From NCBI GenBank assembly GCA_030038565.1, contig JASHSS010000783.1, positions 1 through 32,787 on the forward strand: a stretch of DNA of 32,787 nucleotides. Reading direction: 5' to 3'. This DNA comes from Bryobacteraceae bacterium (GTDB taxonomy: Bacteria; Acidobacteriota; Terriglobia; Bryobacterales; Bryobacteraceae). The position numbers and the translations under genes are program-made. Of this stretch, positions 4,251 to 26,191 are shown piece after piece. The stretch's first letter is position 1. Every line of letters begins with the position of its first letter. A model generated the notes under the pieces. It was not told where the DNA came from. It was given only the letters and a program-made list of their open reading frames with translations, and made no database searches.

Positions 4251-4253
4251 CCT

Positions 4254-5546: not shown

Positions 5547-5553
5547 TATCGGT

Positions 5554-6141: not shown

Positions 6142-6223
6142 GGGGTTAGTGTACCGCCCGCGCTCCCCCAAAATGTCCGGCGGCGGATGCTATCTTGCTG
6201 CGCGGCCCAGATCGGCCGGCCGG

Positions 6224-7711
6224 TCACGCCTTTTTAATCTGCATCACCACCTTCGCCTCGATGTTCTTGTAATAGGTTTTGGCAAACTGCTCCGCTACAT
6301 CCTGCCCTACCTCTTCTGTCTTTTCGTTTCCTTTCAATTTGTCGAAAACGAATTCAAGAGAACTCTTAATCCCTTCCTTAGCCGAATCTGCGATGATGTC
6401 TTGTAACATTTTGATAGCATCGGCCTTGCTGACTTTGCCAAGTTTGAGCCGGGATAATGGCGACTTTTCGAAGACGATTGTTGCGAACTTTTTACTTTCA
6501 ATCCAATCGTCAAGTCCGGAGAGAAAAGTATCATAGCCGGCCTCCGTCGCAACCGCCTCGAAAAATTGGGCCGGGGTCATGTTCCCCTTGATCAGTTTGC
6601 TCGCGTTTTTAACGGCAGCCTCCAGTGCCCCCTTCATGGCCCCCTTTAACCCGCGGGCCACAAGCTTTTTAACTCGGTCAGCGCCTATCCGGGTGGCCCA
6701 CTTGTTGCTCATCAACTTTTTGGCCGCCGAATCGGCAACGCCTTTGATGACCTTTTCACCCTTCTCACCTTTCATCAGGTCATCCACAGCGCCGGTCGCC
6801 GCCCCCAACAGGCCGTCAATTACAATATTTTTGACCGCGGACTCCCCGCCGCCGCTGGTGCCGGCGATGTACTTGCCGAGTTCAGTTGCAGACGACTTAA
6901 GTAGTTCAGCCCCACCGCCCGAGATTGCACCGGCTCCCGGTGTGGCTCCCAACTCGACGTTAGCTATTGCTCCAGCTATATCGAAAGACGTATCTCTGGT
7001 GAATTCAAGGCCAGACACGATACTCCCCGCCCGGCCGATCACGTCTTCCCGATACTTAATCATGACTTTGTAGGCTTTGTCGATTGGAGGGCCATACTTA
7101 CCGAGTTGATCTTGGATTCTCTTGAAATCCCCGCTGTTCACCGCATTTTTTAGTGCCTCAAAAGACTGTTCACCGGCTTTTATGAGACTTTCATCCGGCA
7201 ATTTGGGACCCATTACGCTGCAAAACCAACTGACGATATACTGGTCTTTGTTAATATCATGGAAAGTGTCCCAATAAATCCGCGCGCCTTCCGACCGCTG
7301 CTGGGCCGCGAGCACCACCGTTCGTTTGAGCGTGGAGATCATCTCTTTGTTGAAGTTCTCAAATTCCTTTTTGGTGAAGACATAAGTCTTCCCGTTGACT
7401 GTGATTATCTGACGCGGCTCATCCGGCACGGCAGAGTGCTTCTGCGCCGCCGCGTCACCTCCTCCGAACGCCGCGGCAAAGGAAGCCGCACTGGGTCCGG
7501 CAAGTTTGGCAAGAGCAGCGGCGGTCTTGGGGCCGACAACTCCATCCTCTTTCAGCCCGGATCGCCTTTGAAACTGCTTGACTGCCTTTGTTGTATCGGC
7601 ATCGAATAAATCGTTTTCGGCGAGTTTTTGCTGAAGCACTACCTTGGTATTGAGAATTTTTTTCAGTGTCAGGACCAGCGCTTCCTTCGATCCCTGCTTG
7701 AGCATTTTCAT
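6224..7711 (-). CDS. protein with N-terminal peptidoglycan-binding domain and unknown helical body
   Basis: Residues about 1-70 form a PG_binding_1 domain (FDADTTKAVKQFQRRSGLKE, DGVVGPKTAAALAKL). The other 425 residues match nothing I know. They are mostly helical, with glycine-rich stretches (GATPGAGAISGGGAELL, VIDGLLGAATGAVDDLM), a basic patch (ATRIGADRVKKLVARGLKGAMKG) and a lysine-rich C terminus. There is no signal peptide, so cell-wall contact would need a special route or delivery to another cell. ATG 7711 follows AAAGGA by about 10 nt. Codon use is visibly AT-richer than in all neighbours, which suggests recent acquisition. Candidates include an effector or toxin-like protein or a prophage-derived protein; context does not decide. 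Confidence 0.8.
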   Translation of the reverse strand: MKMLKQGSKEALVLTLKKILNTKVVLQQKLAENDLFDADTTKAVKQFQRRSGLKEDGVVGPKTAAALAKLAGPSAASFAAAFGGGDAAAQKHSAVPDEPRQIITVNGKTYVFTKKEFENFNKEMISTLKRTVVLAAQQRSEGARIYWDTFHDINKDQYIVSWFCSVMGPKLPDESLIKAGEQSFEALKNAVNSGDFKRIQDQLGKYGPPIDKAYKVMIKYREDVIGRAGSIVSGLEFTRDTSFDIAGAIANVELGATPGAGAISGGGAELLKSSATELGKYIAGTSGGGESAVKNIVIDGLLGAATGAVDDLMKGEKGEKVIKGVADSAAKKLMSNKWATRIGADRVKKLVARGLKGAMKGALEAAVKNASKLIKGNMTPAQFFEAVATEAGYDTFLSGLDDWIESKKFATIVFEKSPLSRLKLGKVSKADAIKMLQDIIADSAKEGIKSSLEFVFDKLKGNEKTEEVGQDVAEQFAKTYYKNIEAKVVMQIKKA

Positions 7712-8032
7712 AGTCGGGTTATCCTTTCGTAGGTTAGTTTCTACTTGAGAGGGATTCGCCTCGGAATGTCATCCCGATCAAGAACAAACGGTGCTCATCC
7801 AACGGCTTCAAGTGTCTCGCGCCGAGCGACAAGGTGAAACCGGATCCGATACACAGGCACATAACATCTAGTCGAAGCTCTAATAGGTTCGCCGAACGGC
7901 GAACTGAGCTCACCCTTGGGGTGATACTCTACCATGCAATAGCGAAAATAACCAGACTAACGGGCCCGGTCATGGTCCTGGTTATAGTACCCGCACCGGC
8001 CGGAATTGTATCGAATATTCCAATCGCGCCGG
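7712..8032. other. intergenic region with three inverted repeats
   Basis: This 321-base gap separates the peptidoglycan-binding gene from the end of the MFS gene. It holds two adjacent hairpins, GTTCGCC/GGCGAAC (7887-7904, 7-bp stem) and CACCC/GGGTG (7911-7923), plus the terminator at 7943-7985. I see no credible ORF and no clear promoter for the gene starting at 7711. Confidence 0.5.
7943..7985 (-). terminator. probable rho-independent terminator of the MFS gene
   Basis: ATAACCAG (7948-7955) pairs with CTGGTTAT (7978-7985). Read on the minus strand the stem closes in CTGGTTAT and continues into TTTTCGC, giving a short U-run. It lies about 50 nt after the stop of the minus-strand MFS gene, in the right orientation. 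Confidence 0.5.
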
Positions 8033-11381: not shown

Positions 11382-14300
11382 CTAGAAACCGAACTTCGCG
11401 GCCAGCACGATCACGCGCCCGGTAACGATGGCGCCCTGCCCCGAACCGTACGGGCTGGTAGGCGGCGCCAGGGTGCTCGACGTGGTTCCCAGGCTGCCCG
11501 ACGTGATGGAAGCGGTCGGGACGGCGAAACTCGGGTGGTTCAAAACGTTGTAGAACTGCGCTCCGATTTCGACCCAGGCCTTCTCCTTGATGAAGAATCT
11601 CTTGGTCAGGCTGGTGTCCACATCGAAGTAGCCGGGCCCGCGGAAGACGCCCGGACCGGTGACTCCGAAATCGGTCTGGATCGGAGTGTTCACCCCCGAG
11701 GTCGAGTTGTAGGTCATGAAATCGCTGGGGGTGAAGCAGGGCGGCGTGCTCGAACCGTGGACCGCGGTGCAGACCGGGTTGATGCTGGGGTCGATGACGG
11801 ATGCCAGAAATGTCTGGCTGGTGCCGCCGCCGGAGTTGATCTGCGCGGACATCTTGCTGTCGGAAGACGAGAACGGCCGCCCGGTGTATGCGTACACCTT
11901 GCCGGACAGGTTCCATCCGCCGATAGTATTTTTCAGGAAAGCGTTGGCGAACTTGTGCGGCTCGGTCCAGACGAAATCGCTGGTAATGGCATGACGGACG
12001 TCGATGCTCTCGTTGCCGTAGCCGAAGTTCAGGTTGTAGGGATTGTAGACCGAGGCCAGGCCCAGCGCGTGCGACCAGGTCCAGCCAAGTTGCCCCTGCA
12101 ATCCCCACTTCAGGGCGCGCCGGAGTTGGACGGTCATGGCGTCGTAGTTGGAGTAGCCGGCAGTCAGTACCTGCGTCACGGTCAGGAAACGGGGATCGGG
12201 CGCGGCGGTGGGCAGGCCGGCGAAACTCGTGCCGTAATACTTGTTGAGGCCGTTCGCGCCCAGCAGCAGAAAGAAATTGCTCGAGGTGTTGGAGATAGCC
12301 TGATCGTAGCCGTGATTGCCGGCATAAGTCACCGCCAGAACGTCGTGCTCGTCCAACTGGCGCTCCAATGCCAGGCTCCACTCGGTGGTTTTCGGCGCCA
12401 CGAAGTTGTTCGGCGGCGAATAGTAGCTGGGAGCGCTGAAGGGGATGCTTCCCAATGCCGCTTTGATCGACGCCAGAGTGCCGCCACCGGCGAACTGGGA
12501 GGTGAACGTATTGTAGGCCGCGGCGGCGGCATAAGCCGAGCTTGCGGAATCGGTCGGCGGGCCGGCTTCGCCGAACGTCACGCTTGGTTTGAAGACGCTG
12601 GGGGCATTGCCGAATACGCTGGATGCCACGCTGCCCGCGAAAAGCGTGGCGAACGAGCCGATGCCGCCGCGAACCACGGTTTTCGAATCCAGGTTCCACG
12701 CGAAACCGAAGCGCGGTTCCGGAATGATGCTTTCCAGGCTCTTGTACAGATTGTGTTCGCCGGTAGTGATGGTCTGGTTGTAGGGAATGCTGGCCCCGCC
12801 CGAGTAGCCCGATGTTCCGAACTGCGTGTTCATGCGCGCGAAGCAGTTATCCAGGCAGGACGGGTCGCCGTCGTGCTCGATGCGCATACCCAGCATAAAA
12901 GTGAGATTGCGCCGGATCTTCCATTCATCCTGCACATAAGCGCCTAGCGAACTCATACGCAGGTGGACCTGCAACATGTTGGGGAAATACTGGCTGAAGG
13001 AAGATCCCGCGCCCGTGGAGTTGATCTGGCCGGTCGCAAAGTCCGTCAGATCGGTGAACGTGTAAATTCCGGCGTACGCCCTTTCGGAGTTGGTGAAGTC
13101 GGTGACCTTATTGTACCGGTAGTTGGCGCCGACCTTAATGCTGTGTTTGCCCTGGATCCAGGTGACGTCATCCACGAACTGAGCCTGGCCCACGTTGCGG
13201 CCTTGCGGCATGTTGGTGGCGATGCCCAACTCTGTGCAGCAGCCGTCATTCGGGTACCAGGTCTCCGGCATTAGCGAGAGGGCCTTTTTGAGGTCCGTGT
13301 AGCCGAAATACGCGGTGTACCACATGCCGGAGCCGATGAAGTTATTCACCAGGGTAGGTGTTATAGCGTAGGTATAGGTCAACTGGCCGGCATCGGAGGG
13401 TTGGTTGCTCGTTTCATTGAAAGCCGCATTGATAAGGCTCGGTCCGGTAGCCTGCACGCCCCAATCGGGGTTGAATCGTGCGCTGATCTTCTGCTTGTCG
13501 GTGATGTTGTAGTCGCCGCGAAACACCATCAGGCTCTCTTTGTTGATCTCGCTGGCGTTTTCGGCGAAGGCGTAGGTGCAGGGCACATTGTTGGCAACGT
13601 TATTGCCGCCGAACACGCCGCCGCCGGGAGCCTGAATGTTGGAGTTCCAGAACGTGTAGACGCCGCAGCCGAGGTGGTCGTTGCCGTCCTGTAAGGGGCC
13701 GTTGCCGTTGGTGGTTGGAACCGCGTTCTTGGCGCCGGGCGCGCCGGACCACAGCGCGAAAGCATCCTGATAGAGCGGCAGGGTGGCCGCGGGCACGTGC
13801 GCCAGGGTATATTGCTCAAACTGCGGAGAAGGAATGTGCACCACGCCGGACGTCGGCAGGGCGTATTGCAGGCTCTCGTAGTTGAAGAAGAAGAACAGCT
13901 TGTTCTTCTTGATCGGGCCGCCCACCGAACCGCCGAAGTTATGGGAATCCGAGCGCGGCTGCTGCAAGCCCGCCTGGTTGTTGAAGAAATCGTTGGCGTT
14001 GAATATCTTGTCGTTGTAGTTGTGGAACAGGTTGCCGTGGAAACTGTTGCTGCCGGACTTCCCCACGTAGTTCACCTGCGCGCCCGACATGCGGCCGAAG
14101 TCGGCGCTGTAGGCGTTCAGGACCACGGACGCCTCGGCTACCTCATTGGCGCCCAGGGAATTGTTGCTGGCCCCGGAATTGTTGATGTTCAGGTAGGGGT
14201 CCATGTTGTCGGCGCCGTTGAAGGTGAAAAGGGCCGACGCCCCCGGAATTCCGTTGACGTTGAAATTGCCCGACGATCCCCCGCCCGGCAATACCAGCAC

Positions 14301-14810
14301 CCCGGGAACCGTGAACGCGACGGTGGTGATGTCGCCTCCATTGGCGGGCAGATTAGTAACTTGCGCCTGGTTGAAGCCGCTGGTCAGGTTAGCGTTCTCG
14401 GTTTGCAGCAGTTCCGCCTGCTCGGTCACCTCCACGGTGGCCTGCGTTAGTTGCACGGTCACGGTCAGGTTGACGCCCAATTCCTGCCCCACCAATAAGG
14501 TCAGTTTCTCGACCCTGGACTTCAGGCTGGTGGCATTGGCGGAAACTTCATAATCGCCCGGCTCGAGGAGTGAAAAGCGGTACTCGCCCACGCCGTTGGT
14601 GGTGGCGTTTCTGGTTACATTGGTGGCGATCTGCCTGATGGTTACGGCCGCGCCGGGCACAACCGCGCCGGTCGAATCCGAAACCACTCCCGCGATATCG
14701 CCGGTGGTCATGGTTTGACTGAATGCCGGCGCCGTCCGCAATAGCAGCAGCGCCGCGGCCAGGCTGAGCAAGGCCAGCCAGGAACGCCCATAGCGTACTC
14801 GATCCCTCAT
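11382..14810 (-). CDS. TonB-dependent receptor-like outer-membrane protein with carboxypeptidase-regulatory domain (Oar-like)
   Basis: The 1142-residue product starts at ATG 14810, 7 nt after a GGAGG ribosome-binding site, and opens with a signal peptide (SWLALLSLAAALLLLRTAP, cleavage after AFS). Residues about 36-120 form a carboxypeptidase-regulatory beta-sandwich (GDIAGVVSDSTGAVVPGAAV, GVGEYRFSLLEPGDYEV). About 125-270 form the plug (NVNGIPGASALFTFNGADNMD). The rest is an outer-membrane barrel, with KKNKLFFFFNYESLQY early and the C-terminal aromatic residue VLAAKFGF. These receptors take up large or scarce nutrients with TonB energy; the ligand is unknown and no TonB box was identified. 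In-frame sequence back to 15032 is not coding. It faces the TIGR03435 gene and diverges from the PIG-L gene. Confidence 0.93.
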   Translation of the reverse strand: MRDRVRYGRSWLALLSLAAALLLLRTAPAFSQTMTTGDIAGVVSDSTGAVVPGAAVTIRQIATNVTRNATTNGVGEYRFSLLEPGDYEVSANATSLKSRVEKLTLLVGQELGVNLTVTVQLTQATVEVTEQAELLQTENANLTSGFNQAQVTNLPANGGDITTVAFTVPGVLVLPGGGSSGNFNVNGIPGASALFTFNGADNMDPYLNINNSGASNNSLGANEVAEASVVLNAYSADFGRMSGAQVNYVGKSGSNSFHGNLFHNYNDKIFNANDFFNNQAGLQQPRSDSHNFGGSVGGPIKKNKLFFFFNYESLQYALPTSGVVHIPSPQFEQYTLAHVPAATLPLYQDAFALWSGAPGAKNAVPTTNGNGPLQDGNDHLGCGVYTFWNSNIQAPGGGVFGGNNVANNVPCTYAFAENASEINKESLMVFRGDYNITDKQKISARFNPDWGVQATGPSLINAAFNETSNQPSDAGQLTYTYAITPTLVNNFIGSGMWYTAYFGYTDLKKALSLMPETWYPNDGCCTELGIATNMPQGRNVGQAQFVDDVTWIQGKHSIKVGANYRYNKVTDFTNSERAYAGIYTFTDLTDFATGQINSTGAGSSFSQYFPNMLQVHLRMSSLGAYVQDEWKIRRNLTFMLGMRIEHDGDPSCLDNCFARMNTQFGTSGYSGGASIPYNQTITTGEHNLYKSLESIIPEPRFGFAWNLDSKTVVRGGIGSFATLFAGSVASSVFGNAPSVFKPSVTFGEAGPPTDSASSAYAAAAAYNTFTSQFAGGGTLASIKAALGSIPFSAPSYYSPPNNFVAPKTTEWSLALERQLDEHDVLAVTYAGNHGYDQAISNTSSNFFLLLGANGLNKYYGTSFAGLPTAAPDPRFLTVTQVLTAGYSNYDAMTVQLRRALKWGLQGQLGWTWSHALGLASVYNPYNLNFGYGNESIDVRHAITSDFVWTEPHKFANAFLKNTIGGWNLSGKVYAYTGRPFSSSDSKMSAQINSGGGTSQTFLASVIDPSINPVCTAVHGSSTPPCFTPSDFMTYNSTSGVNTPIQTDFGVTGPGVFRGPGYFDVDTSLTKRFFIKEKAWVEIGAQFYNVLNHPSFAVPTASITSGSLGTTSSTLAPPTSPYGSGQGAIVTGRVIVLAAKFGF

Positions 14811-15222
14811 CGCAAATCCTCCCGATACGACTAACTCCAAAACTCTGCGCGATCTTGCCTGGTGTAAAATGGCGACGCCCGCGAAACCTGCGTCGGGTGT
14901 TCTAACTCCGTTAGAAAGCCGGGCCGCCATGTTCGATTCGGCGATCCAACTCGGCCCTGGACGGCAACTCCATCGGATGCAAGACTGGATGTCCGTTTGG
15001 CAGAGTATGACACAGCGCCATACTGCATTCAAGTAAAAACGATCTATATACCCTATAATCCAATGGCTTTACTAGCGCGGTCGGTATACACATCGTTCGG
15101 GTGGTGCTGTTTACTGGCACGCCATAAATCCGCAAACTGTTGCAAAACAAGGCGTCTAGCAGCAGCCGGCCTACACCTGGTTTCCGGTACAATAGCCATG
15201 GCCACGTGCCGATCGATCCACC
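14811..15222. other. divergent intergenic region between receptor and PIG-L genes
   Basis: About 410 bases hold the GGAGG ribosome-binding site of the receptor (minus strand, just above 14810), an AT-rich stretch at 15028-15060 with a TATAAT hexamer at 15054-15059 on the plus strand, and the TACAAT box nearer the PIG-L gene. I see no separate gene. Confidence 0.45.
15188..15193 (+). promoter_or_regulatory. TACAAT -10-like box before the PIG-L gene
   Basis: TACAAT lies 29 nt before the ATG at 15223, giving a leader of about 20 nt. The -35 region is not recognisable. A second candidate, TATAAT at 15054-15059, would give a much longer leader. Confidence 0.35.
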
Positions 15223-15975
15223 ATGACTCACATCCTCGCCATTCACGCACATCCCGACGACGTGGAAATGCTCGCGGGCGGCGCCCTGGCGCTGCTGGCT
15301 CACGCGGGCCACTCCGTCACCATCGCCACCTTCACCCCCGGCGATTGCGGCTCCGCGGATCGCGGCGCCGAGGAGATCGCGTCCGTGCGGCGCCGTGAAG
15401 CCGCTAGTGCGGCAGCGCGAATCGGCGCCCGGTACCTGTGCCTGGAAATGCGCGATATGGCGATCTTCAACGACGATGCCTCCCGCCGGCGCGTGACCGA
15501 CGTCCTGCGGCGGACCAACCCGCAGATCGTGCTGGCTCCCTCGCCGGTCGATTATCTCTGCGATCACGAAACCGCCAGCCTGCTGGTACGCGACGCCTGC
15601 TTCGCCGCGCCCCTCCCCAATTACCAGACGGGCAGCCTCGCAACCGAGGCCATCCCGCACCTCTATTTCATGGACCCGGTGGGCGGGCGCGACCGCCAGA
15701 ACTGCATGGTGCGGCCCGATTTCGTGGTGAATATCGCAGCCGCCTTCGAGCGCAAACGCCAGATGCTGGCCGATCACGCCAGCCAGCGCGAATGGCTGCG
15801 CCGCCATCACGGCGTGGACGAATATCTCGAGGAAATGGAAAGGACTACTCGCGAGCGGGGCGCGCTGGCCGGGGTATCGCACGGGGAAGGCTTCCGCCAG
15901 TATCGCGGCCACCCCTACCCGCAGACCCCGTTGCTCCAGGACGCACTCGGGCCGGCGGCCATCGGCCTTCCCTAA
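15223..15975 (+). CDS. PIG-L/LmbE-family zinc-dependent N-deacetylase
   Basis: The 250-residue product shows the PIG-L fold: AHPDDVE at 9-15 supplies the zinc ligands His10 and Asp13 and the catalytic Asp12, and SPVDYLCDHETAS carries the third zinc ligand, His115. Family members deacetylate N-acetylglucosamine-linked compounds, including bacillithiol and mycothiol precursors, GPI intermediates and antibiotics such as lincomycin. The length fits the BshB/LmbE group, but the substrate cannot be told; a bacillithiol-type role is only one option. No good ribosome-binding site precedes ATG 15223, but the conserved N terminus begins there. It runs in the same direction as the guanidine cassette but stands 404 nt before it, so it is probably a separate unit. 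Confidence 0.88.
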   Translation: MTHILAIHAHPDDVEMLAGGALALLAHAGHSVTIATFTPGDCGSADRGAEEIASVRRREAASAAARIGARYLCLEMRDMAIFNDDASRRRVTDVLRRTNPQIVLAPSPVDYLCDHETASLLVRDACFAAPLPNYQTGSLATEAIPHLYFMDPVGGRDRQNCMVRPDFVVNIAAAFERKRQMLADHASQREWLRRHHGVDEYLEEMERTTRERGALAGVSHGEGFRQYRGHPYPQTPLLQDALGPAAIGLP

Positions 15976-16379
15976 ACACGCCGCCCCCGGAACCAAGACC
16001 CGGCAGGTCGGCGTATGTTCGAGTCTGCCAGGTGCCGCTCACCATCCCCCGCGCCTCGCCCTCGGGCGATAGGTTGCCGCCCCGGAGGGCGGTGGAGACG
16101 AAGGCGCGCCGGTGCGCCCCTGTGTCTCACCCCTCTCGCGCTGATTGGCGCGATAAAAACATTTTGTGCGCGCTGTCTCCCGCTGGCGCGCTTCCTCTGC
16201 CATACTGGCCTTGATGTCCCTGGCCAGACAAGCGCGGGTTACACGAGCGCGGATCGCCCTGCGGGTGTTCCTCCGCCTGACCGCGATGGATGTCTGCTGC
16301 GGACCGCCTTCCCTCCTCGCATCTTCTTAGCTCGCCCCGAATCTGTCTGTCCTGAATTCTAAGAGGGAGTGGTGTATCA
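15976..16379 (+). promoter_or_regulatory. long leader of the guanidine/urea operon with consecutive hairpins
   Basis: This 404-nt gap before the first operon gene can form five hairpins in a row: CCGCCC/GGGCGG (16077-16092), a two-part stem GAGAC/GTCTC around GGCGC/GCGCC (16092-16130), TCGCGC/GCGCGA (16136-16153), GCGCGC/GCGCGC (16168-16191) and TGGCC/GGCCA (16206-16226). Known relatives of this operon often carry a guanidine-I (ykkC) riboswitch; its conserved AGGGUUCCG and GGUCCGAGAG blocks are not found here, nor the paired ACGR loops of guanidine-II. No convincing promoter was found. A GAGGGAG ribosome-binding site lies at 16363-16369. Structured RNA is plausible, class unknown; in DNA this GC-rich some hairpins are expected by chance. 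Confidence 0.4.
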
Positions 16380-17096
16380 ATGAGCGAGTCGTCTGTGCTT
16401 TGGGAAGAGATCGTAGGGCCCGGCGCAAGCTGGTCGCACGTTTTGAAGCGCGGCACGAAGTTGCGCATCACCGATCTCGAAGGCGGCGCCAATGTGGGCG
16501 CGCTGTTCTATAACTTCGAGTGTCCGGTGGAGCGCTATAACATGCCGGACACGTTGAAGGCGCAACATATCGCCCGGCTCACCACGGGCTACGTGCTGTA
16601 TTCGGATATGGGCCGCATCCTCTGCTCCATTGTGGAGGATACGGTGGGCTGGCACGATCCGCTGGGCGGCTGCTCCAACCGCGCCCTGGCGGACGCAAAA
16701 TACGGCGAGGCCCGCTACCAGGAGCATCGCAACGAGTATCACAAGAACGGCCGCGACAGCTTCCTGGTGGAACTTGGCAAGTGGGGGCTGGGACCGCGCG
16801 ACCTGATTGCCAACGTCAACTTCTTCAGCCGCGTGGACGTGGCCGCAGACGGCGCCATGACCTTTCGGGCGGCGAACTCCCCGGCTGGTTCCTACGTCGA
16901 GCTGAGGGCCGAAATGAACACCCTCGCCATCCTCAATACCTGCCAGCATCCGCTCGATCCAAACCGCCAATATGCGCCCAAACCGGTGCTGCTTTCCATC
17001 CGCCGCAGCGCCGCGCCCGGCCCGGATGATGCGTGCCGCGTCTCGCGCCCCGAAAACGGCCGCGGCTTCATATTAACGGAGCGATATTTCCTGTGA
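16380..17096 (+). CDS. urea carboxylase-associated DUF1989 protein, probable carboxyguanidine deiminase subunit
   Basis: The 238-residue product belongs to DUF1989. It shows the paired motifs of that fold: [11 protein letters not shown] in the middle, [29 protein letters not shown] late, and an RKG-like turn, [23 protein letters not shown], early. Cys and His in these motifs are the likely metal ligands. DUF1989 pairs beside a biotin carboxylase and allophanate hydrolase have been shown to be the two subunits of carboxyguanidine deiminase (CgdAB), which removes ammonia from carboxyguanidine to give allophanate. By length this looks like the UAAP2 type, which is my judgement. ATG 16380 follows a GAGGGAG site by about 10 nt. 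First gene of the operon, 10 nt before its partner. Confidence 0.88.
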
Positions 17097-17106
17097 GGAC
17101 ACTCGC

Positions 17107-17778
17107 ATGAGCGACAGACCCGGCAGCATCGAGCTTGTGGAGAGCCGCCTTTCGCCGGCCGCCGCGGTATACCGCGCGGTGATTCCCGCCGGTGAGCCGT
17201 GGATCCACGAAATCCGCCAGGGGCAGATCTTCCGCATCGTGGACCTCAACGGCAACCAGGCCGTGGATACGCTGTTTTACAACGCGCACGATTATTCCGA
17301 CCGTTACAGCGCGCAGGACACCATCCGCGCCCAGGCGAATCTGTACCTGACCACCGGCACGCGGTTGCTGTCCACGGGCGGCACGGTGCTGCTGACCATC
17401 GTGGCCGATACCTGCGGGCGCCACGACACCCTGGGCGGCGCCTGCGCCAACGAGAGCAACATGGTGCGCTACGCCATTGAGAAGCGCTCCATGCACGCCT
17501 GCCGCAGCAGCTTTCTGAAGGCCGTCATCGAGTGGGATCGCGGCATGACCAAGCGCGACATCACCGCCAACATCAACTTCTTCATGAATGTTCCGGTGAC
17601 GCCGGAAGGCGGATTGACCTTTGAAGACGGCATTTCGCAGCCCGGCAAGTACGTCGAGATGCGCGCCGAGACCGATGTCCTGGCGCTCATCAGCAACTGC
17701 CCCCAATTAAACAATCCCTGCAATGCCTACAATCCGACGCCGGTCGAGGCGCTGATTTGGGATCCCCAAGCAAGTTGA
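17107..17778 (+). CDS. second urea carboxylase-associated DUF1989 protein, partner deiminase subunit
   Basis: The 223-residue product is a DUF1989 paralogue of the preceding protein, with [69 protein letters not shown] and the C-terminal [19 protein letters not shown]. The [14 protein letters not shown] segment and the late Cys pair are highly conserved in the UAAP1 type and probably hold the catalytic metal. It should form a heteromer with the upstream protein and convert carboxyguanidine to allophanate. It lies 10 nt after its partner and its TGA overlaps the ATG of the carboxylase (TGATG at 17776-17780), so translation is coupled. Confidence 0.9.
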
Positions 17779-20700
17779 TGTTCCAAAAGGTCCTCATCGC
17801 CAACCGGGGCGCGATTGCCTGCCGCATCATTCGAACCCTGCGGCGTTTGGGGATTGCTTCCGTGGCGGTGTATTCCCAGGCCGATCGCCATTCGCTGCAC
17901 GTGGAACAGGCCGGGGAAGCGGCGCCGATCGGACCGGCTCCCGCGGCCGAGAGCTATCTCTCGATTCCGGCGCTGATCGAAGCCGCGCGCCGCTCGGGCG
18001 CCCAGGCCATTCATCCCGGCTACGGATTTCTCAGCGAGAATGCCGCCTTCGCCGAAGCCTGCGCCTCGAACGGCATCGTCTTCATCGGCCCCACCCCGGC
18101 GCAGATGCGCGATTTCGGCTTGAAGCACACGGCGCGGCGCATCGCCGAAGAGAACGGGTTGCCGCTCGCGGCGGGCACCGGTCTGCTGGATTCGGTGGAT
18201 GAGGCGCACCGGGCGGCCGGGCGCATCGGCTTCCCGGTGATCCTCAAGAGCACCGCGGGCGGCGGCGGAATCGGAATGCGGGTGTGCCAAGGCCCGGCCG
18301 ACCTCGCCGAGGCCTATTCGGCGGTCGCGCGGCTCAGCCATGCCGGCTTTGGCGCAGCGGGCATCTACCTGGAAAAATTTCTGGCCCGCGCGCGCCATAT
18401 CGAGGTGCAGATTTTCGGCGATGGCCGCGGCGGGGTAGTGTCCTTGGGCGAGCGCGATTGCTCCGCGCAGCGCCGCCATCAGAAGGTGATCGAAGAGACG
18501 CCCGCGCCCGGACTGGCGCCGGAAGCCCGCGCGCGCCTCGCGGAATCGGCCGTTCGCCTGGGCCAGGCCGTCCACTACCAATCGGCGGGCACGGTGGAGT
18601 TCCTCTACGACGATGCGGCCGCCGCCTTCTACTTCCTGGAAGTCAACACACGCCTGCAAGTGGAGCACGGCGTCACCGAAGAGGTGACCGGCGTGGACCT
18701 GGTGGAGTGGATGGTGCGGCTGGCGGCCGGCGAGATGCCCGATTTGGCCGGCCTGCGAATCGCTCCCCAAGGCTGCTCGATCCAGGCGCGCATCTACGCC
18801 GAAGATCCCGGCAAGGGTTTCCAGCCCGGCGCGGGGCGCCTGGTACATGTGGCATGGCCCCGCAACGCCCGAGTCGAAACCTGGGTGGAATCGGGCGCCG
18901 AAGTCACCCCTTATTACGACCCCATGCTGGCGAAGATCATCGTCCGCGGACCCAGCCGCGAGGCTGCGCTGGAACGCCTGCGGGCGGCGCTGGCCGAGTG
19001 CCGCCTGGACGGCATCGAAACGAACCTGGAGTATTTGCGGCAAGTGTGCGGCTCCGCGGCGTTCCAGGCGGGCGGCATTTCGACCGCCTTCCTGGGCGAT
19101 TTCGAATACCGGCGGCACGCCATCGATGTGATCCTCGCGGGAACCCAGACCACCATTCAGGATTACCCCGGGCGGATAGGCTACTGGCACGTGGGAGTGC
19201 CGCCCTCCGGTCCCATGGATTCGCTGGCCTTCCGGCTGGCCAATCGCCTGGTGGGCAACCCGGAATCGGCCGCCGGCCTGGAAGTCACGGTCACCGGCCC
19301 CTCCCTGCGCTTCCGCTCGGACGCGGTCATCGCGCTCACCGGGGCCGATTTCGGCGCTCGCCTGGATGGCGTTCCGGTCCCGCGCTGGCAAACTATTTCG
19401 GTGAAGCCCTGCGCGCTCCTCGAAATGGGCGCGGTGGCAGGCGCGGGTGCGCGCGGATACCTGGCGGTGGCCGGCGGATTCGACGCGCCCGATTATTTGG
19501 GAAGCGCCAGCACTTTCATCCTGGGCCGCTTCGGCGGATGTTGCGGACGCGTGCTGCGGCCGGGTGACGTGCTGCCGATCGTCGCAACGGACGCCGCGGC
19601 GCTGCCACCGCTCCCGCCGGCGCTCACCCCCGCTTACTCGCATTCCTGGGACATCGGCGTCCTTTACGGACCGCACGGCGCGCCCGATTTCTTCACCCCG
19701 GCCGGCATGGAAGCATTCTTCGCCGCGAATTGGAAAGTCCACCACCATTCCGACCGCACGGGCGTGCGATTGATCGGTCCCAAGCCCGCCTGGGCGCGCC
19801 CGGATGGCGGCGAAGCGGGGCTGCACCCATCCAACATCCACGACAATGCCTACGCCGTTGGAACCATCGATTTCACCGGCGACATGCCCGTAATCCTGGG
19901 TCCGGATGGTCCCAGCCTGGGCGGTTTCGTGTGCCCGGCCACCATCATCGATGCCGAGCTTTGGAAGATCGGACAACTCAAGCCCGGCGACCTGGTGCGC
20001 TTCCGTCCGGTCTCGCTGGCCCAGGCGCGCCGCATGCAGTCGGCTCTCGATACCGCTGTCGCCACGAGGGCCGGCCGCCTGCCGCACCTGCCGCATCCCG
20101 CCCCGCCTGAGGACCCCGTGCTGCGCTCGCGCCCGGCCACATCCAACCTGCCCGCGGTGGTCTGCCGCGCCGATGGCGATCAGTACCTGCTCCTGGAATA
20201 CGGCCCCAACGTTCTCGATCTCAACCTGCGCTTCCGCGTGCACGCGCTCGAAAGCCAGTTGCGCTCACTTGGGCCGAATGGAATTTTGGACATCACCCCG
20301 GGCGTCCGTTCGCTGCACATTCACTACGACGGCCGCAAGTTGACGCGCGCCGCGCTGCTCGAAGCCCTCGACCACGCCGAGAGCCGCATCCCCGACCTGG
20401 ACGATATCGTGGCGCCCTCGCGCGTGGTGCACCTGCCGCTCTCCTGGGACGACCCTGCCACCCGCCTGGCCATCCAGAAATACACCCAATCGGTGCGGCC
20501 CGACGCTCCCTGGTGCCCCAGCAACATCGAATTCATCCGCCGCATCAACGGTCTCGGTTCGGTGGACGACGTGCGGCGCATCGTGTATTTGGCGAATTAC
20601 CTGGTGCTCGGCCTGGGCGATGTCTACCTGGGAGCGCCGGTGGCCACGCCCACCGATCCGCGCCACCGCCTGGTGACCACCAAGTACAACCCCGCCCGCA

Positions 20701-21386
20701 CCTGGACGCCCGAAAATGCCGTCGGCATCGGCGGCGCTTACCTGTGCGTCTACGGCATGGAGGGTCCCGGCGGCTACCAGTTCGTGGGCCGCACGCTGCA
20801 GATGTGGAACAGCTTTCGATCCACGGGCGAATTCGCGCCCGGCACGCCCTGGCTGCTGCGCTTCTTCGACCAGATCCGCTTCTATCCCGTTTCGGCGGCC
20901 GAACTCGCGGAAATTCGCGACGCCTTCCCGCACGGCCGCTACCCGCTGCGCATCGAAAGCCGCGATTTTCGCCTGGCCGAGTATCACGCCTTCCTCGCAT
21001 CCATCCAGCCGGAAGCCGCCGCTTTCAAACGTCGCCAGCACGATGCCTTCGTTGCGGAGCGGGAACGCTGGGCTGAGGCGCCCTCCGGTTCCGCCGATGG
21101 GCCTGGCGAACCGCCCGATCCGGGCACTGGGGCGCCCGTGGATGGCGTGCCCGAGGGTTGCCGGCCGGTCTGCGCGCCGGTGGCCGCTAACGTTTGGAGC
21201 ATCGCCGTGGCGGCCGGCCAGCGCGTGGAAGCCGGCCAGCGGTTGGTGGTCCTGGAGGCCATGAAGATGGAAATTGCCGTGGCCGCCCCGGTTGGCGGCA
21301 CCATTGAGACGCTCCACTGCGCGCCGGGCCATCTGGTGGCCGCGGGGCAACACCTGCTCACCGTGCGCCCCGAGGCAGCCGCATGA
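17778..21386 (+). CDS. biotin-dependent urea/guanidine carboxylase
   Basis: The 1202-residue single-chain enzyme has four parts in the order usual for urea carboxylase: biotin carboxylase with ATP-grasp (about 1-445, from [20 protein letters not shown], with the glycine-rich [12 protein letters not shown] and [18 protein letters not shown]), AHS2/KipA-like carboxyltransferase (about 447-760, [45 protein letters not shown]), AHS1/KipI-like (about 785-1080, [28 protein letters not shown]), and a biotinyl domain with Lys1163 in LEAMKMEI. It carboxylates urea or guanidine with ATP and bicarbonate. The DUF1989 pair before it makes guanidine the more likely substrate; I could not settle this from active-site residues. 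I start at the ATG overlapping the previous stop, where similarity begins. It overlaps the next gene by 4 nt. Confidence 0.93.
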
Positions 21387-23194
21387 AAACCCCCGCACCC
21401 TTGAACCTGGGGTCTCTGCGCGAACTCTATCGCAGCGGCGCCGCGCGGCCCTCGGACGTGGTGGCGCAGATTTTCGATTCCATTTCCCGCGAACCGCGCG
21501 AACCGGTCTGGATTTCGCTGGTGTCGCGCGACGCCGCACTGGCCCGCGCGCGGGCCCTCGAAAAAGACTCGCTGGCGCCCGCCAAGCCGCTCTACGGCGT
21601 GCCGTTCGCCATCAAGGACAACCTCGATCTGGCGGGCCTCCCCACCACTGCCGGCTGTCCCGCGTATTCCTACACGCCGGCCGCCAGCGCCACGGTGGTC
21701 CAAGCGCTGGTGGATGCCGGCGCCATCGCCATCGGCAAAACCAATCTGGACCAGTTCGCCACCGGCCTGGTGGGCGTGCGCTCGCCGCATGGCGCCTGTT
21801 CGAGCGTCTTCGACCGGCGTTACATTTCGGGCGGGTCGAGCTCCGGGTCGGCCGTGGCGGTGGCCAAGGGTCTCGCCAGTTTCGCGCTGGGGTCGGACAC
21901 CGCCGGCTCCGGGCGCGTTCCGGCCGCCTTCAATGGCCTGATCGGGCTGAAGCCCACCCGCGGCGCGCTGAGCACGCTGGGCCTGGTGCCCGCCTGCCGG
22001 TCGCTCGATTGCGTCTCGATTCTGGCCCGGACCTGTCACGACGCCCACACCGTGTGGCAGGTGGCCCGCGGCTTCGACCCGCTGGATCCCTATTCGCGCG
22101 CGCCCGGTCCCGGGCAGGATGCCGCGCCGTGGCTCAGCCGCCAACCGGGCGGCGCATTTCGCTTCGGCGTTCCGTCGGCCGCGCAACTGGAATTTTTCGG
22201 CGACCGCGAAGCCGAAGCGCTCTATCAGCGTGCGGCGGAGACGATCGAAACCATCGGTGGCCGAAGAGTGGAGATCGATTTTTCTATCTTTCGCACCGCG
22301 GCCGATCTGTTGTATTCCGGTCCATGGGTGGCCGAGCGCCTGGCGGCTCTTTTGCCTTTCGTGGAAAGCCATGCCGCCGAAATGCACCCGGTGGTCCGCG
22401 AGATCGTCATGGGCGCGCGCGGTTACAGCGCCGTCCAGGCTTTCCAGGCGGAGTATCGCCTGCGCGATTTGCGGCGCTCCTCGGAAGCCGAATGGGAAAA
22501 GATGGATGTGCTGTTCCTGCCCACCACCGGCGCCATCTACACCCACGAGGCCATCGCCGCCGACCCCATCCGCTTGAACAGCAACCTGGGCTACTACACC
22601 AATTTCGTCAACCTGCTGGACCTGGCAGCCGTGGCGGTCCCGGCTGGTTTCCGGTCCACCGGCCTGCCTTTCGGCGTATCGTTCATCGGCCCCGCCTTCC
22701 GCGACGAAGCCCTGCTGCTCGCGGCCGACCGGTTCCACCGCGCACAGGCCAGCGTGCCCGCGCCGCCCGTGGAATTGGAAGCCACGCCGCCGGGCTGTGT
22801 GGCCCTGGCGGTAGTGGGTGCGCACCTGAGCGGCCAGCCTCTGAACTGGCAGCTTACCGAGCGCGGCGGGCGCCTGATTCGCTGCTGCCGCACCGCCGCG
22901 GGCTACCGGCTTTATAAGCTGGAAGGAACCCTGCCACCGAAACCTGGATTGGTGCGCGACCCCGAATTCCGGGGACCCGGAATCGAAGTGGAAGTCTGGG
23001 CCATTCCCGAAGATCGTTTCAGCGGATTGGTGGCCGCCGTGCCGCCGCCCTTGGGAATTGGCAAGGCCACCCTGGAGGATGGAGAGGTGGTCGGTTGCTT
23101 CCTCTGCGAGCCCTTCGCCGTGCCGGGCGCGGCCGAGATCACTCGCTACGGAGGCTGGCGTCAGTACCTGGCGCCGCCCGCATCGCTTCGCTGA
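21383..23194 (+). CDS. atzF: allophanate hydrolase
   Basis: The 603-residue product is an amidase-signature enzyme with the full triad: Lys78 (PFAIKDN), Ser152 (SGGSSSGSA) and the nucleophile Ser176 ([11 protein letters not shown]), at the same spacing as in AtzF. Residues about 480-603 form the second domain seen in complete allophanate hydrolases, a gamma-glutamylcyclotransferase-like fold ([37 protein letters not shown]). Together they turn allophanate into two ammonia and two CO2 in the cytoplasm, the last step of the pathway begun by the carboxylase. ATG 21383 overlaps the carboxylase TGA in an ATGA, so translation is coupled. The transporter genes follow after 106 nt. Length and motifs are normal. 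Confidence 0.95.
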
Positions 23195-23300
23195 ATCCGG
23201 GCAATAGAAGGAATCCGGGCGGCCCGCGTTGGCTGCCGTGTTAGAATTCAAAGAACTCCGAAGGCCCCGTCGCCTTGGTTCTAATGTTTGGGGAGCGACG

Positions 23301-24356
23301 ATGCTGCGCGGCCTTTTGGTCCTCATCCTTTCGATTACCGCTTTCGCCCAGAAACCCTCCTTCACCGTGGGTTGGTCGATCTACGCCGGCTGGACTCCTT
23401 ATTACTACATGAACAAGGCCGGGATCCTGCGCAAGTGGGCCGACAAGTACGGTATCGCCATCAAGGTGCAGCGCTTCGATTATGCCCCCTCGCTGGACGC
23501 CTTCGTCGCCCGCAATATCGATGCCTGCGCCATGACGAACATGGAAGCCCTGGATATGCCAGCGGCTTCGGGCGTCCCCACCACCGTGGTCCTGATCGGC
23601 GATTACTCCAACGGCAACGATGCCGTGCTGGTGCGCGGCGGGCTGCAATTGAAGGATCTGGCGGGCAAGAAGATGCTGCTGGTGGAGAAGACCGTCTCCG
23701 AGTACCTCTTCGACCGCGCCATGACCCTCAACGGGTTGCGCGACCAGATCAAGCGCGTGCGCCTGATCAACACCTCCGATTCCGATATCGCCACCGCCTT
23801 CCTGGGCGATACCAGCGCCAATGCCGTGGTTACCTGGAAACCGATGGTCTCGCAGATCTCGAAGCAGAAGGGCATCGCCTCGCTGTTCAATTCCTCGCAG
23901 ATTCCGGGCGAGATTCTGGACCTGACGGTGGTGCGCACGGACGTGTTGAACCGTCCCGATGGCGCGGGCCGCAAGTTTGCCCAGGCCCTTTCCGGCGCGT
24001 GGTACGAGATGCTCGCAATGATGTCGGCCGCGGGACCGGCGGGCGACAAGGTGCTGGCCGCCATCGCCGAGGGTTCCCAGGACACGCTGGCATCCTACAA
24101 GGAACAGCTCTCCACCACCAAAATGTTTTACACGCCGCAATCGGCCGCCGCTTTCGGCGCCTCTCCCGATCTGAAGCAGAAGATGGCCCTGGTGCGGCAG
24201 TTCTGTTTTGACCACGGGCTGCTGGGGGCCAATACCAGGTCCCTGGATGAAGTGGCCATCCGCTATCCCGATGGAAGCGTGCAGGGGAAGGCTGACCGGG
24301 TGCGGCTGGTCTTCGACCTGGGCTATATGCAGATGGCCGCGGGAGGCAAATTGTGA
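23301..24356 (+). CDS. ABC transporter substrate-binding protein, NitT/TauT (NMT1) type, probable guanidine/urea-related uptake
   Basis: The 351-residue product begins with a signal peptide (MLRGLLVLILSITAFAQ) and the NMT1/SsuA-like opening TVGWSIYAGWTPYYYMNKAG, then IKVQRFDYAPSLDAFVARNIDACAMTNMEAL, AVLVRGGLQLKDLAGKKMLL and WKPMVSQI. It should bind the solute in the periplasm and deliver it to the permease encoded next. Homologues in urea carboxylase clusters are annotated as urea carboxylase-related transporters; guanidine or a derivative is the likely cargo here, by context only. I start at ATG 23301, 5 nt after GGGGAG; the frame extends back to 23229 but that part is not signal-like. A TAGAAT at 23242-23247 could be a weak internal promoter. 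Confidence 0.9.
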   Translation: MLRGLLVLILSITAFAQKPSFTVGWSIYAGWTPYYYMNKAGILRKWADKYGIAIKVQRFDYAPSLDAFVARNIDACAMTNMEALDMPAASGVPTTVVLIGDYSNGNDAVLVRGGLQLKDLAGKKMLLVEKTVSEYLFDRAMTLNGLRDQIKRVRLINTSDSDIATAFLGDTSANAVVTWKPMVSQISKQKGIASLFNSSQIPGEILDLTVVRTDVLNRPDGAGRKFAQALSGAWYEMLAMMSAAGPAGDKVLAAIAEGSQDTLASYKEQLSTTKMFYTPQSAAAFGASPDLKQKMALVRQFCFDHGLLGANTRSLDEVAIRYPDGSVQGKADRVRLVFDLGYMQMAAGGKL

Positions 24357-24368
24357 ACGTCAAACCAC

Positions 24369-24445
24369 GGGAATTTGGGGCATTTTGCCCAAATTCCCCG
24401 CTTAACTCCTTTGTTTTCAACGTTTGCCTTGGGCATTTTGCCCAA
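24369..24445 (+). repeat. two near-identical palindromes between binding-protein and permease genes
   Basis: GGGAATTTGGG (24369-24379) pairs perfectly with CCCAAATTCCC (24388-24398), an 11-bp stem. Fifty-odd bases later TTGGGC/GCCCAA (24429-24445) forms a second stem. Both share the core GGGCATTTTGCCCAAA. Placed after the binding-protein stop and before the permease start, they could slow or partly stop transcription, or protect the upstream message, so that binding protein is made in excess over the membrane parts. They could equally be two copies of an interspersed repeat. Confidence 0.6.
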
Positions 24446-24495
24446 AATCGCGGTGGGAGGCAGGCATTGGCCGGCCCCCTGTGGTCCTGAAACCC

Positions 24496-25353
24496 ATGCC
24501 TGCGGCCTTCCTCCTCATCCACGCCAAACCCTCCCGCGCCTGGAGCGTGCTGCTCTCCTGGACGCTCTTCGCGGCCGGCATCGGCGCCTATTTCTACGTC
24601 TCGCACGCGCGCCATCGCGACAACCCCGAAGATCGCGTCATGCCCACCATCGCCCAGATGGCCCGCGGCATGTACAACGCGGCCTTGCAACCGGCCGAGG
24701 AAGACGAGGCCACCGCGCCGCCCGATAACTTCGTCCAGCGCTTCTTCGGCAGCATGTTATGGAAAGATACCCGGGCCAGCGCCCGGCGTTTCTTCTACAG
24801 CATGGCGCTGCTCGTTCCGGCCGTGCTGTTGGGTTTGCACATGGGCCTGTTTCCCTACGCCGGCAGTTTTTTTCTGCGCTTCATTCTGTTCTTCGACAAA
24901 ATTGTGGCGCTCTCGCTGCTGCCGATTCTCTTCATCGCCTTCGGCATCGACGAACTGGCCAAAGTCATGCTGATCGTCATCGGCGTGGCCCCCACCATCA
25001 TTCTGGACACCTTCAACCTGGTGCGCGGCGTCCCGGCGGAGCAAACCGTCAAGGCCTTCACCCTGGGCGCAGGCGATTTCGACGTGGCCTACCGGGTGGT
25101 GCTCAAACAGGTGATGCCGCGCATCCTCAACAGCATCCGGCTGAACCTGAAATCCGTCATGCTGTTTCTGTTCGCGGGTGAGATGATCGCCTCCACCGAC
25201 GGCTTGGCCTTTCGCATCGCGCTGCTGCGCCGCCACATGGGCATGGATGTGATCATCCCGTATGTCCTGTGGGTGGCGCTGCTGCTGTTCCTGGTGGACC
25301 TGGGGATGCGCCGGCTCAATCGCATGCTGCATCCCTGGTTCCGGGAGAGCTGA
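24496..25353 (+). CDS. ABC transporter permease, NitT/TauT type
   Basis: The 285-residue product has an N-terminal helix (WSVLLSWTLFAAGIGAYFYV), a soluble stretch of about 60 residues, then the BPD_transp_1 domain with about five helices (FYSMALLVPAVLLGLHMGLF, LPILFIAFG, KVMLIVIGVAPTIIL and others). The EAA-like loop TLGAGDFDVAYRVVLKQVMP contacts the ATPase. It forms the inner-membrane channel of the importer. The start is uncertain: ATG 24496 lacks a clear ribosome-binding site, and GTG 24481 in the same frame is an alternative; the frame also extends to 24424, through the second palindrome, which I reject. It ends 19 nt before the ATPase gene. The long loop after TM1 is slightly unusual. 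Confidence 0.88.
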   Translation: MPAAFLLIHAKPSRAWSVLLSWTLFAAGIGAYFYVSHARHRDNPEDRVMPTIAQMARGMYNAALQPAEEDEATAPPDNFVQRFFGSMLWKDTRASARRFFYSMALLVPAVLLGLHMGLFPYAGSFFLRFILFFDKIVALSLLPILFIAFGIDELAKVMLIVIGVAPTIILDTFNLVRGVPAEQTVKAFTLGAGDFDVAYRVVLKQVMPRILNSIRLNLKSVMLFLFAGEMIASTDGLAFRIALLRRHMGMDVIIPYVLWVALLLFLVDLGMRRLNRMLHPWFRES

Positions 25354-25372
25354 GCCAGGAAAGACCCGACCT

Positions 25373-26191
25373 ATGCCTTTGATCGAAATTCGCGATGTCT
25401 CGGTGGCTTACGGAACGCCCACGCGGCCCGTTCTGGACCGCGTGTCCCTGGCCATTGAAGAAGGCGAATTCGTCTGCCTGCTAGGCCAGACCGGCTGCGG
25501 AAAATCCACCCTGCTGCGCCTGGTGCTGGGCGCCGAAAGGCCCGCCGCGGGACGCATCCTGGTGGATGGCCGCGTGCACCATCAGCCCGACCGCACGCGC
25601 GGCTACGTCCCGCAGAAGTATTCCCTGTTCCCCGATAAGACGGTGCTCGATAACATCACCTTCGGTCCCGAGGTTTGCGAATTCGGTCTCGCCGCCCGCC
25701 TGACGCCGCGCTTCTTCCGCCGCCGCCGCGAGTTCCGGCGCCAGGCGTTCGAGTACTTACAACGCATCGGCCTGGAACCCTCCGACGCCGCTAAGTATCC
25801 CGATCAGCTCTCCGGAGGCATGCAGCAGCGCGTGGCCATCGCCCAAGCGCTCATCACCCGCCCGCGCATTCTGCTGATGGACGAAGCCTTCAGCGCGCTC
25901 GATCCGGGCACCCGCAAGGGAATGCAGCGGCTCATCCGCCAACTTTGGAAGGACACCGGCGCGACCATCCTGTTCGTCACCCACAACACCCACGAAGCTC
26001 TGCGCCTGGGCACCCGCGTGGTGGTATTGGCGAAGGAAATGCCCGATAGCGGCTCCCGCGTAATGCTCGATCTGCCGGTTCCCGAGCCCTGCCGCGACGA
26101 CGACATTCCGCGCCTGGTGCGCCGCCTGGAGAGCGCCTCTACTTCTTCGGATCCCCTCGCCCCGGCCTCGGCTCTCTCGGAAAAATGGTGA
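25373..26191 (+). CDS. ABC transporter ATP-binding protein, NitT/TauT type
   Basis: The 272-residue ATPase shows Walker A GQTGCGKS (38-45), the signature LSGGMQQR near 146, Walker B ILLMDEAFSALD near 164-175 and the switch histidine in VTHNTHEALRL. A basic insert, RFFRRRREFRRQA, follows the Q-loop region. It energises the importer formed with the two preceding products. ATG 25373 follows AGGAAAG by about 9 nt. An in-frame extension back to 25262 overlaps the permease and is rejected. Its last 53 bases overlap the convergent hydrolase gene, so the operon ends here with no room for a separate terminator. Confidence 0.93.
   Translation: MPLIEIRDVSVAYGTPTRPVLDRVSLAIEEGEFVCLLGQTGCGKSTLLRLVLGAERPAAGRILVDGRVHHQPDRTRGYVPQKYSLFPDKTVLDNITFGPEVCEFGLAARLTPRFFRRRREFRRQAFEYLQRIGLEPSDAAKYPDQLSGGMQQRVAIAQALITRPRILLMDEAFSALDPGTRKGMQRLIRQLWKDTGATILFVTHNTHEALRLGTRVVVLAKEMPDSGSRVMLDLPVPEPCRDDDIPRLVRRLESASTSSDPLAPASALSEKW

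Follow-up and report, generated by a model that had tools for sequence, protein, structure and literature searches.

What controls the guanidine operon of a soil bacterium of the family Bryobacteraceae, and what is encoded in the long gap in front of it? The window, which is the whole stretch of DNA that was analyzed, comprises positions 1 to 32,787 of the + strand of contig JASHSS010000783.1 (Bryobacteraceae bacterium, assembly GCA_030038565.1). Within it, an intergenic stretch of 404 nt (15976-16379) lies directly 5' of the gene for UAAP1. The genes that follow, all on the + strand, encode the carboxyguanidine deiminase subunits UAAP1 (DUF1989, 16380-17096; TIGR03425, 345.5 bits, cut-off 205.95) and UAAP2 (DUF1989, 17107-17778; TIGR03424, 342.2 bits, cut-off 284.7), a urea/guanidine carboxylase of 1202 aa (17778-21386; TIGR02712, 1800 bits), an allophanate hydrolase (21383-23194; NF006043, 811.7 bits, and TIGR02713, 771.8 bits), and, by profile matches, an ABC transporter consisting of a substrate-binding protein (TIGR03427), a permease, and an ATPase (23229-26191). 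These profiles and the length of the gap bear out the initial annotation, which had described an unusual leader before a guanidine operon. On the other side of the gap, directly 5' of it on the + strand, is a gene for a PIG-L/BshB1-like deacetylase (15223-15975; TIGR04001, 135 bits, below the cut-off of 182.5).

The carboxylase was examined for its likely substrate. Its residue Asp698 aligns with Asn1330 of the urea amidolyase of K. lactis (alignment to 3va7/5i8i), and Asn1330 of 5i8i is what we take to be the specificity position to which a published Asp/Asn rule refers. In the accessible part of the review that gives this rule, Asp marks guanidine carboxylases and Asn marks urea carboxylases (PMC12186494). 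The window carboxylase carries the Asp (D698). Based on this residue and the gene set, the window operon is most likely an operon for guanidine use.

The initial annotation had further placed five GC-rich hairpins at 16077-16226 (+ strand), noted that the ykkC blocks are absent, and proposed an RNA responsive to guanidine or nitrogen, either new or diverged, that fits no known guanidine riboswitch, to be checked against Rfam and by covariation in orthologous leaders. Its other suggestions were a leader bound by a protein and GC-rich sequence that folds by chance. Guanidine-I to -IV riboswitches are RNA aptamers that elsewhere occupy the same place as the window leader, 5' of guanidine carboxylase/carboxyguanidine deiminase operons (excerpts of PMC12186494). 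None of them matched the window leader. A search of the whole window at the Rfam gathering threshold gave 0 matches, and a search of 15500-16900 at E up to 10 revealed no guanidine riboswitch and four meaningless eukaryotic/sRNA matches, which agrees with the annotation on this point. Rfam likewise had no match in the leader loci of eight relatives (L087, L089, and L090 being left out) or at 13 UAAP loci without the leader. Across the class, guanidine-I was found at cut-off in 0 of 299 genomes; if guanidine controls these operons, another sensor must therefore serve. Five of the 299 genomes, of Acidobacteriaceae type (f11), contain sub-threshold guanidine-I (ykkC) matches of 35-43 bits (L248-L252; cut-off 63), which are possibly a diverged ykkC relative. 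In genome G770, the sub-threshold match and the leader-bearing operon are on different contigs.

The hairpins are present in predicted folds, but they are not convincingly beyond chance. The fold of the 404-nt leader has a z score of -1.30, with 9 of 100 shuffles equally or more stable, and that of the 150-nt hairpin region has a z score of -1.74, with 9 of 200 shuffles equally or more stable. Conservation lies elsewhere in the gap: at E ≤ 0.01, positions 16077-16213 were matched in 3 of 65 orthologous upstream regions and positions 16331-16379 in none, compared with 59 of 65 for positions 16214-16330. Hairpins 1-4 are 5' of a -10-like box (16201-16206) and of the inferred transcript start at ~16214, and hairpin 5 straddles this start, so nearly all of the hairpins would be absent from the mRNA and outside the functional element. 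A consensus fold of the true 5' leader from 10 aligned leaders, one of which (L202:675-762) lacks the 5' part, contained 5 pairs, 0 of them with a compensatory change. The conserved covarying stems of a guanidine riboswitch or any other structured RNA were thus not seen, and the block that is conserved changes at codon third positions. By the covariation criterion that the annotation had set for itself, the proposal of an RNA fails. Although its position ahead of a guanidine operon and its weakly stable predicted fold speak for an RNA element, the lack of an Rfam match, of conservation, and of covariation appears to have largely refuted this reading, to which we assign a negligible probability. 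What survives of the proposed guanidine- or nitrogen-responsive leader is not a fold; it is a conserved coding upstream ORF (uORF) at 16214-16330 and its peptide, a feature that the annotation had overlooked.

This uORF runs on the + strand from ATG to TAG and encodes a peptide of 38 aa, MSLARQARVTRARIALRVFLRLTAMDVCCGPPSLLASS, as judged from its translation, its orthologues, and its coding signature. A DNA search of 101 relatives pointed to positions 16240-16318, with matches in two genomes (G039 and G041) that are both directly before UAAP1; three further weak matches were found in genomes without a UAAP1 hit. In the aligned UAAP1-upstream DNA of relatives, the block varies mostly at every third base and therefore reads as a small ORF. 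Its conserved core, LRLTAMDVCCGPP, corresponds to codons 20-32 (16271-16309), with the pattern match at 16286-16308 occurring once in the bacterium's own genome. The peptide has no match in Pfam or NCBIfam. A peptide profile run against 396 genomes of the phylum gave a significant match in its own genome only (1.4e-18), the next matches (E 0.015 and weaker) being chance-like.

Comparison of the orthologues provides the coding signature. The core LRxTxMDVCCGPP was found in 69 distinct copies across Acidobacteriota (L168 and L176 being excluded), with changes at third positions. L20 and R21 are present in 69 of the 69, V18 in 66, and T23 in 63, which gives a fuller, near-invariant core of V-x-L-R-[LIM]-T-x-M-D-V-C-C-G-P-P, located a few codons 5' of the stop in an ORF of 31-43 codons; the tail after CCGPP is variable in length and sequence. 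An alignment of 35 peptides has L20, R21, T23, M25, D26, V27, C28, C29, G30, P31, and P32 invariant. In codons 13-24, which are outside the search pattern, the omega-like ratio was 0.134 in frame and 0.83 and 6.1 in the other + frames. One antisense frame reached 0.30; its third positions coincide with those of the uORF, and stops interrupt it in 10 of the 69 sequences. In the frame of the uORF, codons 13-32 contain no stop in any of the 69. It should be noted that the search pattern itself fixes MDVCCGPP, and conservation of these residues is claimed only from a pattern-free survey. In this survey UAAP2 served as the anchor for the whole class, in which it is present in 49 of 399 genomes; 34 of the 49 were surveyed, and the best match to LRLTAMDVCCGPP within 700 nt 5' of the first gene was scored. 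Nineteen of the 34 genomes score 10-11, all with an exact MDVCCGPP, 15 score ≤4.3, and none fall between. The element is either near-perfect or absent. Among the 15 genomes without the leader is G758, whose UAAP2 stands apart from the others. The conserved ORF is almost certainly a real coding uORF.

The pattern ATGGAYGTNTGYTGYGGNCCNCC was used to determine the genomic partners of the leader. Of 200 genomes of the family, 41 contain it, each a single time (reversed control, 0 of 200), and 52 of the 200 have UAAP1. Thirty-six of the 41 leaders are directly 5' of UAAP1, and the other five precede an allophanate hydrolase alone (G064, G183, and G167), a decayed operon (G176), or a beta-barrel gene (G138). 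A wider scan of one genome per species (84,980 species) returned 72 places. Two of these, in a Chloroflexi MAG (L168) and a Thermoplasmatota MAG (L176), are inside other ORFs and were rejected as off-target, and four (L141, L158, L179, and L196) end too near the motif to judge. In 65 of the 66 assessable places, the leader stands before UAAP1 (58 places, including a decayed one), before UAAP2 alone (4), or before an allophanate hydrolase alone (3); in the 66th (L167, the same place as L088), the leader is before an outer-membrane beta-barrel gene. All 70 on-target places come from records labelled as Acidobacteriota groups, and no leader was found in plasmids (tblastn) or viral contigs (pattern). 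The features generic to leader-peptide uORFs, namely a conserved short ORF, selection at the protein level, and a fixed place upstream of the same genes, are all present. At the level of sequence, these comparisons show that the peptide is under strong purifying selection and linked, through the genes that it precedes, to the guanidine-carboxylase pathway.

The association is not universal. Of the 52 family genomes that have UAAP1, 16 lack the exact motif, one of them having a shortened leader, which suggests that the leader is dispensable in some lineages. In twelve of the 16, UAAP1 is directly behind another ORF, beta-propeller-like by eye, and in G040 a transporter gene is upstream of UAAP1 (this breakdown leaves out G190).

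Several loci depart from the standard arrangement. Natural internal deletions are found in genus g54, where L004 (G101) keeps only CCGPP and its sister L006 (G053) keeps the promoter-like block, the ORF being gone. At L091/L077 (G176), the UAAP1 and carboxylase frames are broken and the leader peptide is still perfectly conserved. At L087, L089, and L090, the leader is before a lone allophanate hydrolase, an arrangement that would result if the genes in between had been lost and the leader retained. In Terracidiphilus gabretensis (L130), the leader precedes a UAAP1-carboxylase pair, and in four Acidobacteriaceae loci (L133, L151, L169, and L188), it precedes solo UAAP2-type DUF1989 genes; one MAG (JOPF035) contains three copies of the leader. 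Silvibacterium bohemicum, like T. gabretensis a cultured relative, also has the leader. At L088 (G138, 3900-7951), an intact leader is directly before an outer-membrane beta-barrel gene (OMP_b-brl_4 plus CarboxypepD_reg), a family that is also represented in the window by a gene on the minus strand (11382-15032).

The start of the uORF was then considered. In the window, the -10-like hexamer CATACT (16201-16206, + strand) is 7 nt before the ATG. Among 41 leaders, 35 have a hexamer [ACG]AT..T with its end 6 or 7 nt 5' of the uORF start, compared with 2.6% per sequence expected by chance, and 6 are without a -10-like box at 6-7 nt. A Shine-Dalgarno match of at least 4 before the uORF was found in 0 of the 41. 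The position of the -10-like box together with the missing Shine-Dalgarno suggests that the uORF is probably leaderless, with the transcript beginning at or beside the ATG; the leaderless start characteristic of polycysteine attenuators would thus be shared by these 35 leaders. A promoter scan of 15976-16400 found neither a sigma-70 hexamer pair nor an intrinsic terminator, and since the hexamers are not paired, support is limited to the -10 side of the promoter. Farther 5', an AT-rich stretch followed by TTTTGTGC (16152-16169, + strand) represents a -46 motif of many relatives that a Gibbs search of 35 sequences recovered at 9.5 bits (6.2 bits in shuffles), and which we treat as a lead only for a possible activator or -35-region site. 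The motif, approximately AAAnTTTTTnnGCGC and about 46 nt before the uORF start, is 5' of the -10 box in the window, L003, L005, L026, and others. In some of these it takes the form of a palindrome, ATCGA-TTTTT-TCGAT, placed where an activator would bind.

Downstream of CCGPP, the window has a C-rich, G-poor segment (16310-16365, + strand), which by composition is a candidate Rho-loading (rut) region. Over 65 leaders, the first 60 nt after CCGPP have a C content of 0.33 and a G content of 0.19, compared with 0.30 and 0.27 in 155 upstream windows that served as controls. An excess of C over G is seen in 59 of the 65 and, when the sequences are clustered, in 30 of 33 clusters (p 1.7e-9, a value inflated by sequence kinship; decayed L077 was left out of the count), and the excess is weaker among leaders with long spacers (13 of 17). 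A Rho gene is encoded in the genome (719 bits, cut-off 509). By composition, the locus thus has what the TnaC and CruR systems have, a rut-like segment with C>G beside the pause site in a genome that encodes Rho. By eye, L076 and L078 (genus g5) have a hairpin with a T-run, AGCGGTTCCCGCTGGTTTTT, right after CCGPP, and intrinsic termination may replace Rho in these two leaders.

Taken together, the uORF very probably encodes a cis-regulatory leader peptide, one that probably signals to the ribosome and RNA polymerase when the operon is turned on. Our current hypothesis is that RNA polymerase would start at or beside the uORF ATG and that ribosomes would initiate there without a Shine-Dalgarno. 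In the presence of the signal, the ribosome would pause at the Cys-Cys-Gly-Pro-Pro codons (16295-16309, + strand), which the known RAGP/RAPP/RGPP arrest motifs suggest as the pause site by analogy. Gly-Pro-Pro would then occupy the catalytic center, and the exit tunnel would hold LRxTxMDVCC. Halted there, the ribosome would cover the C-rich, G-poor segment so that Rho could not load, and transcription would continue into the UAAP1-UAAP2-carboxylase-allophanate hydrolase-transporter genes. In the absence of the signal, the ribosome would finish and leave, Rho would load, and the operon would be attenuated. This proposal is based on the run of invariant residues ending in Gly-Pro-Pro, which resembles a sequence that the ribosome senses in its tunnel, the known precedents, the C>G segment, the presence of Rho, and the lack of conserved Shine-Dalgarno sequestration described below. 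By analogy with known arrest peptides, we regard a pause that depends on the nascent peptide as reasonably probable, whereas Rho as the effector, likewise argued from precedent, falls a little short of an even chance; for the entire chain from leader peptide through pausing at CCGPP to shielding of the Rho site, the sequence features leave the balance about even.

Our search of the open-access literature found no publication on this peptide or on leader-peptide regulators of Acidobacteriota. One close parallel is TnaC of the tnaCAB operon of E. coli, which like the window uORF is a small uORF before a catabolic operon and has conserved residues over a tunnel-length stretch that ends in Pro (excerpts of PMC10941005). 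Its rut site comes right after the arrest site, beside the stop codon (same excerpts), and the window has its candidate rut after CCGPP. However, TnaC arrests at Pro plus the stop codon on free tryptophan, whereas the tail of the window peptide after GPP is variable and its arrest would be by analogy; no sequence similarity between the two was seen, and the leaderless start belongs to the window uORF. A second parallel is provided by SecM, ApdA, ApdP, ApcA, and the RQH family (RAPP/RGPP-type), in which a Gly-Pro or Pro-Pro core is near the C terminus, conserved residues are just upstream of the core, and the peptide is encoded 5' of the regulated gene, as in the window (parts of PMC10987492 and PMC12992588). 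According to the same parts, uORFs with RAPP, RGPP, and RAGP are known arrest peptides. Of the RAPP-like motifs, RGPP arrests most strongly, and known arrest peptides that have lost the Arg (AAPP) no longer arrest (portions of PMC12992588). This speaks against the pause model, as the core is CGPP in all copies and lacks the Arg of R-[AG]-P-P or R-A-G-P that RAPP/RGPP-type peptides need. Two other differences from these peptides are that no export signal is expected of the short window peptide and that its downstream genes are metabolic. With no Pfam or NCBIfam match and no publication found in that search, the CCGPP uORFs appear to form a leader-peptide family that is new in itself but of an already familiar general type.

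The same features can be read in other ways. The uORF ribosome could act on translation, in the manner of Erm leaders, by opening or closing the UAAP1 Shine-Dalgarno (the candidate AGAGGGAG, 16362-16369, + strand) or through coupling or re-initiation, and the short spacers between uORF and gene (26-160 nt in most leaders) fit this, as does the pyrimidine stretch after CCGPP, which pairs with the Shine-Dalgarno in some leaders (L008, L010, L011, L012, and L173). Across 45 short-spacer leaders, however, sequestration as a conserved switch was not supported: Shine-Dalgarno accessibility is 0.26 compared with 0.28 in shuffles (p 0.12) and changes little, to 0.31, when the RNA under a stalled ribosome is removed, so that an Erm-type sequestered site is true of some individual leaders only. 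The spacers of Acidobacteriaceae, mostly about 180-290 nt, also do not fit, and we consider translational control unlikely. A small protein acting in trans, for instance a thiol peptide, a metal binder, or a protein that works together with the DUF1989 enzymes, would account for the strong conservation at the protein level, the two vicinal Cys, and the conserved link to DUF1989 genes. It would not be expected to lie always on the same strand and close 5' of the first gene, to vary in the length and sequence of its tail, to have no Pfam or NCBIfam match, or to persist before a solo allophanate hydrolase where a search at the threshold applied gave no UAAP1, which makes it improbable.

The paired cysteines invite two further explanations. 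Leaderless polycysteine short ORFs of mycobacteria were reportedly described by Canestrari et al. 2020. These are short ORFs with a leaderless start that precede an operon and have Cys codons in a row, as in the window (excerpts of PMC9031893), and they provide a precedent for an attenuator in which Cys codons slow the ribosome when Cys-tRNA is short and the operon answers to cysteine or sulfur supply. The tandem Cys codons, present in every copy used, and the leaderless geometry are consistent with such a device. Unlike the mycobacterial ORFs, the window family has only two Cys, many invariant non-Cys residues, and no link to sulfur genes. At least eight of these residues (L20, R21, M25, D26, V27, G30, P31, and P32) are as invariant as the cysteines and are unneeded for codon counting; MDVCCGPP is unvaried in the 19 leaders of the pattern-free survey; and the Cys codons are ordinary, with UGC in 63 of 69 and 60 of 69 in the leader compared with 38 of 45 in window genes. 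All 65 assessable operons are headed by guanidine or allophanate genes and none by a sulfur gene. Because the non-Cys residues vary no more than the cysteines and the operons do not begin with a sulfur gene, cysteine limitation, the main alternative cue, appears disfavoured and is quite unlikely. The other explanation is that the vicinal Cys pair is a metal site in a nascent chain that senses metal in the manner of CruR (DUF2946, Bordetella). The uORFs for CruR and for CutF (Rhodobacter) combine a Cys pair with a Pro-Pro pause motif, like the window (portions of PMC9426467 and PMC9973294), and CruR has a Cys motif plus RAPP, a C>G bubble, and Rho-dependent control of read-through (excerpts of PMC9426467); one orphan copy of the leader, moreover, precedes an outer-membrane beta-barrel gene (L088). 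However, CruR and CutF are longer, exported, copper-sensing proteins, whereas the window family has 31-43 residues, with Cys-Cys beside Gly-Pro-Pro, and precedes guanidine genes. The Cys motif of CruR is 45 residues before RAPP and outside the tunnel at arrest, while here the Cys would abut GPP inside the tunnel, and the downstream genes are not metal genes. Metal sensing is thus very improbable.

For the preferred reading, a leader peptide at which the ribosome pauses, the signal would probably come from the guanidine-to-allophanate pathway, as a metabolite or as a nitrogen cue. The partners that recur beside the leader are DUF1989 genes and allophanate hydrolase. In G064, G183, and G167, the leaders are intact before a solo allophanate hydrolase, and the carboxylase search gave no full-length match, only hits to the biotin-carboxylase domain, which argues against guanidine as the sole possible ligand. 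These leaders point instead to a signal common to the pathway, for instance allophanate or nitrogen status, or to more than one role. That the nascent LRxTxMDVCCGPP is itself, within the exit tunnel, the receptor for guanidine or a pathway product (carboxyguanidine or allophanate) is a tentative idea and more doubtful than the pause.

The CCGPP uORF thus represents a compact, strongly conserved candidate regulator of the guanidine pathway in Acidobacteriota, where guanidine-I stayed below cut-off. If the ribosome does pause on a pathway metabolite, the peptide would add a new ligand class to the few metabolite-sensing nascent peptides. Should that ligand be guanidine, the guanidine riboswitches would have a peptide analogue, which, judging from the accessible part of PMC12186494, would be the first regulator other than an RNA to respond to guanidine. 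Even if the cue were nitrogen or cysteine status, the uORF would still represent a new leader-peptide family, one that is without a match in Pfam or NCBIfam.
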